This document shows, in pieces, positions 2,832 to 23,048 of a stretch of DNA of 28,320 nt (positions are counted from its first letter, which is position 1; every line of letters begins with the position of its first letter). Source of the DNA: a virus. The notes beneath the pieces were generated by a model. It did no database searches. It was not told where the DNA came from and saw only the letters and a program-made list of their open reading frames with translations. A program made the translations under genes and the position numbers. The DNA lies in IMG/VR virus record IMGVR_UViG_3300032333_000284, positions 1 through 28,320 of that record; one strand, given 5' to 3'.

Positions 2832-3800
2832 TTATTTAACCATTATCCAAGTACTGTGATCTGCTGCTGTTCCTGCTGTGTAAGTATTCTCAGTACTGGA
2901 AAAACCGAATGCCCACCCTGATGAGCCCCATGTACCACCAAGTCCGAAGAACTCGTTTCCAATAGTTATACTTCCCCCTATAGCGATCATGAACGAGAAA
3001 TCGGGCACAGCACCAGCGGAAGGAACAGTTGCTGTATTAAAGAGTTGAAGATATGCAATGGCTGCTGAACGTGACCTACAATATAAGCTTTGGATATTAC
3101 CACCTGTTGATTTTATATTTAGAGTTGCATTGGCACCAAGATTTTTGAATGGCGTCCATGAACCGTCTGCTGCTGCAACCGGAAGGTATATGATCTGTGC
3201 AGCACCGAGGGTGTTGTTCTCATATCTTGGCGCAAACATATCACGAGTTTTCAAGCGCATAGCACTGTCAGCTTGGAGAGGCCCAACCTGCCCGTTAGTA
3301 GCAACTGGATCACTGACGTTGTAGACTACGAAGGGAAGATTGTTTTGTAGCCCTGTAGTACCAGTCTGTACCGAGACAAGACCTGACCTGTTTCTATCCC
3401 AGGTTGCACCATTGTAAGAGTAACCTAATGCGCCACTCCTGGTTGTTGTTGTATTTGCCTCTGCATCACCTGTAGTGCTTGCATCAGGCGTATTAGAGTT
3501 CGCGCTGATACCTTGTGCGTAGTTAACATCAACTGAACTAGTTGAACCACTATTCTTGGTAAATCGCACCTTACGCCATAGAAACCCACCTTTTCTTTTC
3601 TCAGTATTAGACAGACCGGAGTAAAGTGTTGTGAAGTTAACACCGTCTATAGAGTACTGTACATCTATGTTGATTGTACTAAGCACATTAAACTCGAATG
3701 AACTTATAACTATCTGCTCATCTCCATTGCTATTCTGTGGTATAGTAACTGGTCCAGCGCTTAGATCTAGTTGTGTGCCGAACAGACGAATGTTCTTCAT
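2832..3800 (-). CDS. Beta-rich virion protein, probable tail tip or fibre component
   Basis: The product is 322 residues when started at ATG 3800 (MKNIRLFG). The open frame extends 12 codons further, to 3836, but that extension runs through a GTAC-rich promoter-like element and has no typical translation context, so I prefer 3800. The protein is rich in Ser, Thr, Asn and Gly, with short alternating strands, a GTTGLQNNLPF segment and a Gly/Trp-rich C-terminus (residues about 275-322). It lacks signal peptide, transmembrane or catalytic motifs. Such composition is usual in phage tail-tip and fibre proteins. Position between the holin-like gene and the adhesin supports a structural role. The exact family is not recognised. 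Confidence 0.65.
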   Translation of the reverse strand: MKNIRLFGTQLDLSAGPVTIPQNSNGDEQIVISSFEFNVLSTINIDVQYSIDGVNFTTLYSGLSNTEKRKGGFLWRKVRFTKNSGSTSSVDVNYAQGISANSNTPDASTTGDAEANTTTTRSGALGYSYNGATWDRNRSGLVSVQTGTTGLQNNLPFVVYNVSDPVATNGQVGPLQADSAMRLKTRDMFAPRYENNTLGAAQIIYLPVAAADGSWTPFKNLGANATLNIKSTGGNIQSLYCRSRSAAIAYLQLFNTATVPSAGAVPDFSFMIAIGGSITIGNEFFGLGGTWGSSGWAFGFSSTENTYTAGTAADHSTWIMVK

Positions 3801-18899: not shown

Positions 18900-20486
18900 C
18901 TAAATATACACGTCAACCTTAGCCGCACCCCTAACAATTCCTTGAATACACAACGCATCTGAGATCACGGTGTCATCATGGTATGGACTAATTGCCTCCA
19001 TTCCGCCCTGCTCGTTGTAGTAGAAATAGCTCAGCTCCTCGTACTCATCTTCAGGCACTTCAAAGGCACCACTTGCTCGAATGAACTTTCTAAAGTCCAT
19101 TATGAGAATCGGTTTAGTGCTTGCATTGGTGTTGAAGCCGTACTTGTCTTGGTCTTTCATGACCACCTTGTCCATCACCTTTTGCTTGTACATGTACGGT
19201 CGCCAACTGTACTGCTTCGTAGCAATAATGAATGCTGATGCGTTGTTGTTCTCTGGTATGAGGTAGATGCTCTTGAACTGCACAATGATACTGTCGAGTA
19301 GTGCTGCCATTCTGTCCTGCGTGATATGACCCTTGTAGTGGAACACCAACTTGCCATCGAGTGTACGACCAGTGAACGATGTGTTGTCACCATCTGTACC
19401 ACCAAGTGCTAAGTCACCACCAACAACAACATGCAAATCCTTTCTTAGTTCTTTGCCTACAAACCATTTTACGTCTGATTCTACTGAGAGTGGTTTACGT
19501 TTGACTAGGAATGGTATCTCTTCGTCGAAGACAGGTGAACCATTCAAGATCAATGGGATGTTCATGTACTCCTGCATAAATGCTTTCTCACCTAGCTTGT
19601 TGTAGCGCTTTCTCAGTCGTTCAAGGGACCACCTATCAGGCCATAGTGGAGTACCTGTAAAGTTCTCTTTGTTGAAGTCGATAATTGCAGGGAACTCGAA
19701 AACCTTGAACTCTTGTTGCTCAGCGTTTTGCTTGAGCTTATTCACAAAGCAGTTATTGCCAATCACAGTGCCAAGCACAATCATTGAACCTTCATCTGGG
19801 TTGATAGCTCCGTATACGCTTGTAAAGATCCAGTTATAAAACTCATCAGCAATAAGCGGGTTCTTCACGTCTTTGTTCTCTTGTGGATCATCTACAATAA
19901 CTTTTGTAGGGCGACTACCACGGATAGATTCCCCTTTCGTTAGTGTCTTCACACCACAGCCATTAAGCAGGTCTAGCTGACGTTGTCGCCACTTCTCGTT
20001 GGTCTTCTCACTCTTGTTGCTAATTGGCACTAGGTCTCCCCATATCCAGCGAATAAGTGGGTTTGTCTCTAACTCGAATCTGATATCGCCAATCACATCT
20101 TCACCCAGGCCTTTCGACATGATGAGAATGATTGCTTGCTCTTCTTCAAAAAGAAGATCCCAGAGTACGCCGATCTTAGAAATTATTGTTGTCTTAGCGA
20201 AGCCTCGAGGAATGATACAAAGTATATCCTCTCCAGCACTGGATAATCCTAATAGCTTGATATGCAAATCAGGCATCACATAGCGCACCCCACTCTTCTT
20301 ATCACTAGTCCACCGAGTCGTTATGTTCTTCGCAAAATACTCTTTGTCGTAATAGCACAAGCTCCGTATCACAATCCTTCGCTGTTCCTTGCTCAGCTTC
20401 TCTAAACTGGTTGAGTCTAGTATTTCGTAGAGATCCTCTTTCTCAAGGATCTTAAGCTTACTTCTTCTTTCTCTTTGCTCGTGCAT
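18900..20486 (-). CDS. Terminase large subunit
   Basis: The 528-residue DNA-packaging motor has an N-terminal ATPase with a Walker A-like IIPRGFAKTT at about 91-100 (PRG-x-x-KT form), a Walker B KVIVDDPQ at about 195-202, and a VLGTVIGNN segment resembling the coupling motif. The C-terminal nuclease of the RNase H-like fold begins with VVVGGDLALGGTDGDNTS (D358 in GGDLA as the first acidic residue) and ends with SPYHDDTVISDALCIQG, whose Asp residues fit the final metal ligands. It overlaps the small terminase gene by 29 bp, with ATG at 20486 chosen for that coupling. Function is certain; which packaging strategy (cos or pac) cannot be told. Confidence 0.93.
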   Translation of the reverse strand: MHEQRERRSKLKILEKEDLYEILDSTSLEKLSKEQRRIVIRSLCYYDKEYFAKNITTRWTSDKKSGVRYVMPDLHIKLLGLSSAGEDILCIIPRGFAKTTIISKIGVLWDLLFEEEQAIILIMSKGLGEDVIGDIRFELETNPLIRWIWGDLVPISNKSEKTNEKWRQRQLDLLNGCGVKTLTKGESIRGSRPTKVIVDDPQENKDVKNPLIADEFYNWIFTSVYGAINPDEGSMIVLGTVIGNNCFVNKLKQNAEQQEFKVFEFPAIIDFNKENFTGTPLWPDRWSLERLRKRYNKLGEKAFMQEYMNIPLILNGSPVFDEEIPFLVKRKPLSVESDVKWFVGKELRKDLHVVVGGDLALGGTDGDNTSFTGRTLDGKLVFHYKGHITQDRMAALLDSIIVQFKSIYLIPENNNASAFIIATKQYSWRPYMYKQKVMDKVVMKDQDKYGFNTNASTKPILIMDFRKFIRASGAFEVPEDEYEELSYFYYNEQGGMEAISPYHDDTVISDALCIQGIVRGAAKVDVYI

Positions 20487-20910
20487 CCTTGGCTGCGTTA
20501 ACTAGGCCATTCAGCGCAGAGTCCTCAAGCTCAATGTTGTGGTTGGTATTATCGTTCCTGCTGATTGATGTCGCCTGCCCATTCGCTGTCATGATGATCT
20601 TCCAGATCGTCTCAAGGCCCTTTGCGCTCTCAGCCATGTAGACATCCTTGTTCTTCACTACATGGTCATACACCTCACCTAAAGCCGTAGCCATCTTTGA
20701 GCTCCTCTGCTCTAAAACCTTCTGCACCGTCATCTCCGTTTGCTTCTTTGCCATAGCCTCTTTCTCGACTGCCCAACCCTTTGTTCGACGAGAGAATGTA
20801 CCGCTGCTCTCAACCGCCTTGCGACCAAACTTAGACCTACCCCACGGAGTAACGTCAACGAATTCGCTGAGAAAAAAGTCTCGTTTTAGGGCTTCCCAAT
20901 CCTTTCTCAT
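20458..20910 (-). CDS. Terminase small subunit
   Basis: This 150-residue protein lies immediately upstream of and overlaps the large terminase. It opens with MRKDWEALKRDFFLSEFVDV, similar to small terminase N-termini in which "W-x-x-L-K-x-x-F-F-x-S-E/D-F" precedes a helix-turn-helix (TPWGRSKFGRKAVESSG). A long central helix (AVEKEAMAKKQTEMTVQKVL) would form the oligomer, and the C-terminus is very basic (DARAKRKKK). It recognises the phage packaging site and stimulates the large subunit. The upstream gap (20911-20964) carries a GTAC-rich promoter-like element. Confidence is from pattern plus position. Confidence 0.85.
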   Translation of the reverse strand: MRKDWEALKRDFFLSEFVDVTPWGRSKFGRKAVESSGTFSRRTKGWAVEKEAMAKKQTEMTVQKVLEQRSSKMATALGEVYDHVVKNKDVYMAESAKGLETIWKIIMTANGQATSISRNDNTNHNIELEDSALNGLVNAAKDARAKRKKK

Positions 20911-20967: not shown

Positions 20968-21915
20968 GACATTTTGCATTTTGGAATTAGAAACCTGCTT
21001 TTCACACCAGCGTTTCGTTGGTCCTGACGCCATGTTTTGAATACTCAATGCAAGATCATCAGGCAGAATTGTTTGCTTTGTTGCTAGCCAATGCTGAACC
21101 TTCTTTTGGACCATGAGATCAGGGTGCTTTTCTTCTAGCACAGTTATTGGTCGCATTGCTGGAGTATTGGCATAGGTTGCACCACGAACCTCAAACATCT
21201 TCTTTGGTGTTTCAGTCTCAGCACGCTTCAAAAATGTCAGGAGTCTTGCTGTGGTTGCTTTGACTTTCTTGTTATCTATAAGCCATATGAACATGTCTTC
21301 AGCTTTCTTGATGATCAATGCAGAATCAAAACGTTCCTCGAGGAGTTCAAAGCTAACGTTAACTTCGATGGTCACACCAAACTTTGCTGCAAGGTTGAGA
21401 ACCTGTTGAGCGACTGGGGAAACTTTAGCGGAACTTTGAAGGGGTTCTTCGGATTCTTCGTAGGGCTGAATGGATTTTGATTCCAAACTTTTTTCTTTAT
21501 ATATTTCTTTTTTATATCTACTCTTCTCTTTAGTCTGTGCCCGTTTATTGCCCGTCGGTTGCCCGTGGCTTGCCCGTTGTGCTTTTTTATTAGTCTTAGA
21601 GGTGTCTATGAATATGTTATCTATAAGCCTAAACTCTATGGCTCCAGTCTCTTCGTCTACCCTGCCCGTTCTTGAAACATACGTTGCCCGTTTATTGCCC
21701 GTCTCTAAATCACGCAAAACCCGCTCGATTTGGTTCCATTGAGACTTCTTTAAACCAAACTTTTTAAACTCGTTTTTACTCATGAAGCAAACACGCTCAG
21801 GATTCTTCATAGCACGAGAAGCCATAGCATAGAGCACAGCGAGGCGGAGTGGTTTTTGCATTAACCACTCCACGCCAGGGGCAAGTTTAAGAAACTCTCC
21901 TATTCCTTCAGTCAT
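20965..21915 (-). CDS. Replication initiator-like protein containing an internal origin
   Basis: The 316-residue product looks like a lambda O-like initiator. Residues about 10-100 resemble a winged helix (PLRLAVLYAMASRAMKN, the FMSKNEFKKFGLKKSQWNQI recognition region, then VLRDLETGN). Residues 105-160 are a hydrophilic linker very rich in Lys, Glu and Ser. A helical C-terminal half follows (ALIIKKAEDMFIWLIDNKKV), with no ATPase or polymerase motif. The DNA for residues 71-86 and 113-140 contains iterons and an AT-rich tract (see separate features), as in lambda O, where the origin lies in the linker coding region. Its ATG overlaps the TGA of the upstream 44-residue ORF (ATGA). No helicase or loader gene is in the window. 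Initiator function is inferred. Confidence 0.7.
   Translation of the reverse strand: MTEGIGEFLKLAPGVEWLMQKPLRLAVLYAMASRAMKNPERVCFMSKNEFKKFGLKKSQWNQIERVLRDLETGNKRATYVSRTGRVDEETGAIEFRLIDNIFIDTSKTNKKAQRASHGQPTGNKRAQTKEKSRYKKEIYKEKSLESKSIQPYEESEEPLQSSAKVSPVAQQVLNLAAKFGVTIEVNVSFELLEERFDSALIIKKAEDMFIWLIDNKKVKATTARLLTFLKRAETETPKKMFEVRGATYANTPAMRPITVLEEKHPDLMVQKKVQHWLATKQTILPDDLALSIQNMASGPTKRWCEKQVSNSKMQNV
21480..21532. other. Candidate DNA unwinding element, G-free AT-rich tract
   Basis: Fifty-three bases on the plus strand contain no G and are dominated by T, A and some C, giving strong purine/pyrimidine strand asymmetry. The tract begins just beside the four-iteron array (21538-21577). It encodes a Lys/Glu-rich linker. 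The arrangement copies that of the lambda origin: iterons followed by an asymmetric AT-rich region inside the initiator gene. Confidence 0.6.
21538..21577. repeat. Iteron array 1: four TGCCCGT direct repeats, 11-bp period
   Basis: TGCCCGT starts at 21538, 21549, 21560 and 21571, exactly 11 bp apart, so all copies face the same side of the helix. Three of the four extend to TTGCCCGT. Since 11 is not a multiple of 3, successive copies fall in different reading frames of the host gene, so the repeat is conserved as DNA and not as protein. Confidence 0.85.
21663..21702. repeat. Iteron array 2: three TGCCCGT repeats, 22- and 11-bp spacing
   Basis: TGCCCGT starts at 21663, 21685 and 21696, spaced by 22 and 11 bp, keeping the helical phase. 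The 19-base block TGCCCGTTTATTGCCCGTC at 21685-21703 is identical to 21538-21556 in array 1, pointing to duplication or conversion between arrays. A missing copy would fit at 21674. Confidence 0.8.
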
Positions 21916-22601: not shown

Positions 22602-22684
22602 GTTAAGCATCAAAGAACAGGCATGCAAATGCCAAAGGAGTATCGAAATTTTTCTAAAGAGGCCACCCTAGAGGTGGTTTTTTT
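22602..22684 (+). ncRNA. Candidate phage small RNA with its own promoter and terminator
   Basis: About 83 nt from the predicted start to the U-run. It contains GTTAAGCATCAAAGAAC (22602-22618), a hairpin GGCAT-GCAA-ATGCC (22620-22633) with a GNRA-type tetraloop, a single-stranded AAAGGAG and CGAAATTTTT (22634-22653), and the terminator hairpin. An open frame through it could only begin at GTG 22597, upstream of the predicted transcript start, and it ends inside the terminator loop, so translation is unlikely. No known RNA family is recognised. Confidence 0.55.
22658..22684 (+). terminator. Rho-independent terminator
   Basis: CCACC (22663-22667) pairs with GGTGG (22673-22677) across a five-base loop, extended by weaker G-U and A-U pairs, and is followed directly by seven T residues (22678-22684). 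Confidence 0.8.
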
Positions 22685-22686
22685 AG

Positions 22687-22714
22687 TTGCGTAAAATAGA
22701 AAACAATTTATATT
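22687..22714 (+). promoter_or_regulatory. Rightward promoter for the regulator gene
   Basis: TTGCGT (22687-22692), 16-bp spacer, TATATT (22709-22714), directly after the terminator. The leader that follows has a TGATAAT half-site (22743-22749) similar to the palindromes in the two downstream early promoters. Confidence 0.45.
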
Positions 22715-22784: not shown

Positions 22785-23048
22785 ATGATCAAGAATACAA
22801 TGGCATCAAAAAAACTTAGTTCTAGCTTAAACTTGAATAAGGTTAATCCAAACCTAAACTTGAATGATGCTCAAAAGGAGTACATTACGTCTCGGATGAC
22901 CAAGTATCGCTTGGCTAAGGTAGCAGATCTTGATCACAATACAGTCACTACTTTGTTTAGTGGAGGTAAGAAGGCGAGTATTGAAACAGTTGAGAAAGTA
23001 TCTAAGGCTCTTGGATTAGATATAGGGCAATTCCTCAGTATCAAGTAG
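22785..23048 (+). CDS. Cro/C1-type helix-turn-helix regulator
   Basis: This 87-residue protein has a lysine-rich, disordered N-terminus (about 1-25) followed by an XRE/HTH_26-like domain. Residues 40-66 form the HTH: YRLAKVADLDHNTVTTLFSG, in which A-x-x-x-x-x-D-x-x-T-V-x-x-L matches the recognition-helix pattern. IETVEKVSKALGLDIGQFL is the typical final helix of small Cro/C1 proteins. An alternative start is Met6 (22800). It is the first gene of the rightward module and probably regulates the divergent region or the palindromic early promoters. A TGATAAT half-site in its leader suggests autoregulation, but this is inference. No integrase or classical CI repressor lies in the window. Confidence 0.82.
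   Translation: MIKNTMASKKLSSSLNLNKVNPNLNLNDAQKEYITSRMTKYRLAKVADLDHNTVTTLFSGGKKASIETVEKVSKALGLDIGQFLSIK

Follow-up and report, generated by a model that had tools for sequence, protein, structure and literature searches.

The placement of iterons inside an initiator gene is already known from other phages. In lambda, the iterons are 19-bp inverted repeats that are bound by O dimers and lie next to a 40-bp AT-rich region (PMC5043065). The oriL of SPP1 lies within gene 38, where gp38 binds its direct repeats; an AT-rich unwinding element is adjacent (PMC6316719). Gene 18 of phage L contains six in-gene repeats of 11 bp (PMC8022706), and in 80alpha a deletion of ORF20 could not be complemented in trans, which led to the suggestion that the origin is embedded in ORF20 (PMC5499656). 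The window that we analyzed here, a 28,320-bp virus record (IMGVR_UViG_3300032333_000284), adds one distant example of this layout, in which the protein is an orphan. Judging from the sequence, we consider it probable (roughly 0.8) that seven ACGGGCA repeats within the gene of this protein, P0001, are the initiator-binding iterons of a phage replication origin that lies inside its initiator gene.

Seven repeats in two phased arrays

On the plus strand of the window, we found TGCCCGT (ACGGGCA in gene sense) at 21538, 21549, 21560, 21571, 21663, 21685 and 21696, exactly where the original prediction had placed seven iterons in two arrays, and all seven copies lie inside one ORF (Table 1). A stray copy at 3289 is at chance level, since 1.2 copies are expected per window, and there is no second array with this core elsewhere in the 28,320 bp. 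In gene sense, the order from 5' to 3' is array 2, array 1 and then the C-free AT-rich stretch. The repeats had been proposed to share a helical phase; this is strict within each array, where all steps are 11 or 22 bp, but only approximate between the arrays, as the 92 bp from array 2 to array 1 are not a whole number of 11-bp steps. The slot at 21674, where a copy had been said to be missing, is indeed without an iteron and reads GAAACAT.

Table 1. Coordinates of the features discussed in the text (window positions).
Feature	Position	Strand	Description
P0001 gene	20965..21915	-	ORF; 316-aa putative replication initiator holding both arrays
Putative N-terminal DNA-binding domain	21598..21915	-	aa 1-106; low-confidence AF2 model
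Array 2	21663..21702	-	three ACGGGCA iterons at steps of 11 and 22 bp, with one empty slot; codons ~71-84
Array 1	21538..21577	-	four ACGGGCA iterons, 11-bp steps; putative linker, codons ~113-126
AT-rich tract, candidate DNA unwinding element	21480..21532	.	G-free (C-free in gene sense); 53 nt, 81% AT; 3' of array 1 in gene sense
Likely terminase small subunit gene (terS)	20458..20910	-	weak PHROG match; directly downstream of the P0001 gene

The clustering of the repeats is well beyond what we observed in shuffled sequences. In 200 dinucleotide shuffles of the window, the largest cluster of any 7-mer in 165 bp had 4 copies, as compared to the 7 observed, and in the window itself no 7-mer unrelated to TGCCCGT has 4 copies inside 200 bp. 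In 5000 synonymous-codon shuffles of the gene, ACGGGCA never occurred more than 4 times (7 observed), and the chain of four in array 1, which runs through frames 0, 1 and 2, was matched in 0/200 synonymous shuffles. In the protein, the iterons are read as T-G-N, K-R-A, T-G-R, R-A-S, H-G-Q, T-G-N and K-R-A, that is, in all three frames. They also use CGG, which makes up only 2% of the Arg codons in ten other genes of the window; the gene itself has four CGG codons, three of them inside iterons. Because the iterons fall in all three frames, use rare codons such as CGG and exceed their number in synonymous shuffles, the earlier view that selection acts on the DNA and not on the peptide is well supported.

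These same observations bear on whether the repeats could have no function and reflect a repetitive peptide or a recent tandem duplication. The two arrays share an identical stretch of 19 nt (21538-21556 and 21685-21703), which had been pointed out before and is the sole exact direct repeat in the window that reaches 18 nt; it suggests duplication or conversion. However, the three reading frames, the rare codons and the excess over synonymous shuffles all argue against such an explanation, as do the 4-nt spacers, which have diverged around an invariant 7-nt core. It is largely refuted by the sequence itself, and we regard it as close to negligible.

The AT-rich tract that had been described beside array 1 is present and is the second-longest G-free run in the window. 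The 60 nt on the 3' side of array 1 are 78% AT and contain 2 C, and they rank among the 1.3% most AT-rich stretches of the gene.

An orphan protein encoded next to the terminase genes

P0001 has no match in Pfam, PHROGs or the PDB and no relevant match in NCBIfam. Neither the whole protein nor its N-terminal part has a homologue in phages, plasmids or viral contigs, and none was found in ~800 genomes of two phyla, although these genome searches are weak negatives, since the two phyla need not include that of the host. When P0001 was compared to a 19-member initiator profile with hhalign, the probability was 0.4%, and homology to the initiator family was not detected. P0001 also does not match a Rep-type protein family of iteron plasmids: it has no Pfam match, no relevant NCBIfam match and no plasmid homologue.

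In an AF2 model of aa 1-106 that was made without an alignment, the order of elements is helix-helix-helix-helix-strand-strand, which is compatible with a winged helix, at a pLDDT of 42. The codons of array 2 correspond in this low-confidence model to the last part of a long helix and the first part of a hairpin. Foldseek searches with the P0001 models gave nothing significant, and with models this poor the matches are meaningless. Because there is no detectable homologue and the structure models are poor, P0001 can be called no more than a putative winged-helix protein and a putative initiator. Both arrays had been placed in the linker that follows the DNA-binding domain; this holds for array 1 (aa ~113-126), whereas array 2 (aa ~71-84) falls inside the putative domain.

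Since P0001 is an orphan, a regulator with the same anatomy would be compatible with the data, and autoregulatory proteins commonly bind DNA at phased repeats. The arrays would then be an operator through which P0001 or another regulator controls its own operon, with no origin function. Such a role fits poorly with sites that are 210-380 nt inside the coding region, away from a likely promoter of the minus-strand operon, and that adjoin the AT-rich C-free tract, and we consider it very improbable.

The minus strand of the window encodes tailed-phage head, tail and packaging genes, and the plus strand encodes repressor-like, RecT and resolvase-like genes. The P0001 gene is located directly before terS/terL, and no helicase or loader gene was recognised among the neighbouring ORFs that were searched, in a record that may be incomplete. 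Terminase small subunits often bind repeated sites close to their own gene, and the likely terS gene follows at 630-790 bp from the arrays, so that the arrays might instead be a packaging site (pac or cos), with the phased repeats as binding sites of the small subunit and a cut by the large subunit close by. Because of this gene order, we keep a packaging site in consideration at a low probability. It is at odds with the position of the arrays, which is the in-gene place where initiator genes carry origin iterons, and in other phages such arrays are found in initiator genes whose neighbours function in recombination or encode a helicase or loader, rather than a terminase.

The cumulative GC skew, which had been suggested as a check for an origin, has its minimum at 22.2 kb, ~0.6 kb from the arrays; however, this minimum coincides with the switch of gene strand and is therefore not independent evidence. 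On the plus strand, at 22656-22690, a hairpin with a run of T (GGCCACCCTAGAGGTGGTTTTTTT) resembles a terminator and lies upstream of an HTH gene at 22785; it has no Rfam match, and CAAAGAAC is repeated in the intergenic stretch that precedes it.

Searches for related phages through TerL gave only one, distant relative (L007, 33% identity), which has no TGCCCGT array, and searches through the portal protein gave none. The TerL gene of this relative (L007:4180-5706) contains TGA in frame 28 times but neither TAA nor TAG, so TGA probably encodes an amino acid in this phage; this may be a hint that distant kin of the window phage have hosts among TGA-recoding bacteria.

11-bp repeats in initiator genes of other phages

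A search for TGCCCGT arrays in related phage initiator genes had been recommended, and we scanned for three TGCCCGT cores at 11-bp steps. The matches were mostly in unrelated, high-GC contexts, and so were the majority of the 84 genome contigs that carry three phased copies; the core alone thus does not identify an origin. The scan nevertheless yielded two initiator genes with ACGGGCA at 11-bp steps in the linker, one in L057 and one in the near-identical pair L009/L010. Their products match the PHROG of DnaD-like helicase loaders (E 1e-28 to 1e-30) and are not detectably related to P0001. The L057 initiator aligns with initiators of Staphylococcus, Listeria, Vibrio and Cellulophaga phages, with HK022 O and with P22-like gp18.

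We then used 26 other relatives from a phage collection, in two sets (17 and 9) that were not chosen for the repeat pattern. All are phage initiators (DnaD-like, P22 gp18 and HK022 O), and a chain was counted when at least three identical 6-mers stood at steps of 11, 22 or 33 in the linker. Chained 11-bp direct repeats were present in 14/17 initiators of set one and 7/9 of set two; among these 21/26 positives the iteron sequences differ from phage to phage, and several staphylococcal members are not independent. In contrast, only 3/78 other ORFs on the same loci reached a chain of three, and one of these sits in a field of repeats immediately before the L009 initiator. Most of the initiators tested share one layout, an N-terminal DNA-binding domain followed by a linker where direct repeats of 11 bp run through shifting frames, and most have an AT-rich, C-poor stretch 3' of the repeats, on the same side as in the P0001 gene. 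At 21/26 initiators as compared to 3/78 other ORFs, in-gene iterons at an 11-bp step occur regularly in this phage initiator class and are not peculiar to the window. P0001 resembles the class by anatomy; membership by descent was not found. In 11/15 relatives, the wing codons hold one isolated, distal iteron that precedes the array by 66-91 bp, but in the second set this was so in only 2/7, both staphylococcal, and we rejected it as a general feature.

We also made some observations outside the comparison set. Just upstream of the L009 initiator gene (L009:1-330) is a long field of 11-bp repeats of the CAAGTGGCAGA type, also with GACGGGCA units, which may represent either a longer origin or another array. 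Tandem 11-bp TGCCCGT arrays of three to nine copies occur outside recognised initiators at L038:6485-6546 (Nitrosocosmicus MAG contig), L074:1769-1863 (Alicyclobacillus), and L005:3985-4013 and L006:4652-4680 (two viral contigs). Of the two viral-contig arrays, one is at most 10 bp from the 3' end of a 796-aa ORF, and the other, that of L006, lies between genes near an integrase-like ORF. Dulem virus 31 (PP511318.1) carries a Microviridae taxonomy line that looks mistaken, because its genome is 35.8 kb and circular and has replisome organizer and exonuclease genes.

Taken together, the comparison lends good support to the original prediction of an origin inside a putative initiator gene, which we infer from the shared anatomy. 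Counting against it, P0001 is an orphan whose fold is not established, its gene is directly before terS/terL, and 11-bp TGCCCGT arrays are also found outside recognisable initiators, for example in L006. If the site is an origin, N-terminal domains of P0001 would occupy the 7-bp cores along one face of the helix, and the stack of protomers would put the neighbouring C-free AT-rich tract under strain and so open it. The C-terminal part of P0001 would then recruit the replicative helicase, directly or via a host or phage loader. We find it rather unlikely that P0001 represents a new initiator family with no relation to the O/DnaD-like class, one that reached the same in-gene 11-bp layout and the ACGGGCA core of the L057 and L009 initiators independently; if this were true, the array 2 segment would have to play three roles, as coding sequence, as part of the DNA-binding domain and as the cognate site on the DNA.

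Relation to described phage origins

Each such gene encodes a DNA-binding protein and, most likely, the binding site of that protein, so the signature of phased repeats would point to origin, initiator and DNA target together, even when the protein is an orphan. Collected over many phages, these genes could yield pairs of proteins and targets from which to derive a recognition code, and could offer a means to mark origins in uncultured phages.

The locus had been described as equal to lambda ori apart from iteron sequence and period. The likeness is that the iterons lie within the initiator gene and are followed by an AT-rich tract. The equation itself does not hold, as lambda ori has four inverted-repeat iterons of 18-19 bp at 20-24-bp steps and the window has a 7-bp direct core at 11- or 22-bp steps, a period that is common outside lambda. 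In SPP1, direct repeats and an AT-rich unwinding element are inside the initiator gene, as proposed for the window, but a second origin (oriR) is located elsewhere, whereas in the window no array of the TGCCCGT core is seen outside the P0001 gene.

In L057 (a Bacteroidetes MAG contig) and L009/L010 (IMG/VR), the ACGGGCA core, the 11-bp step and the linker position are all shared with the window, although their proteins belong to the DnaD-like family. The DnaD-like initiators of Staphylococcus, Listeria, Bacillus and Lactobacillus phages (SAP33, PVL, Listeria 188, Palmer and Lc-Nu; 80alpha ORF20, with its apparently embedded origin, is grouped with them by function) have three to seven iterons at multiples of 11 bp in the linker and, in most cases, an AT-rich, A-biased stretch 3' of the iterons, as in the window. 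Unlike the window, they have other iteron sequences, lack detectable homology to P0001 and are sited among early recombination and replication genes. In phage L gene 18 and the P22-like gp18 initiators (PM43 and HK022 O), which are homologous to each other and not detectably to P0001, direct repeats at 11-bp steps likewise occupy the linker of the initiator gene in more than one frame; here the iteron is of the TGTCCA type and a DnaB-type helicase gene follows. The window is closer to the phage L and staphylococcal type, in which 11 bp is usual, than to lambda.
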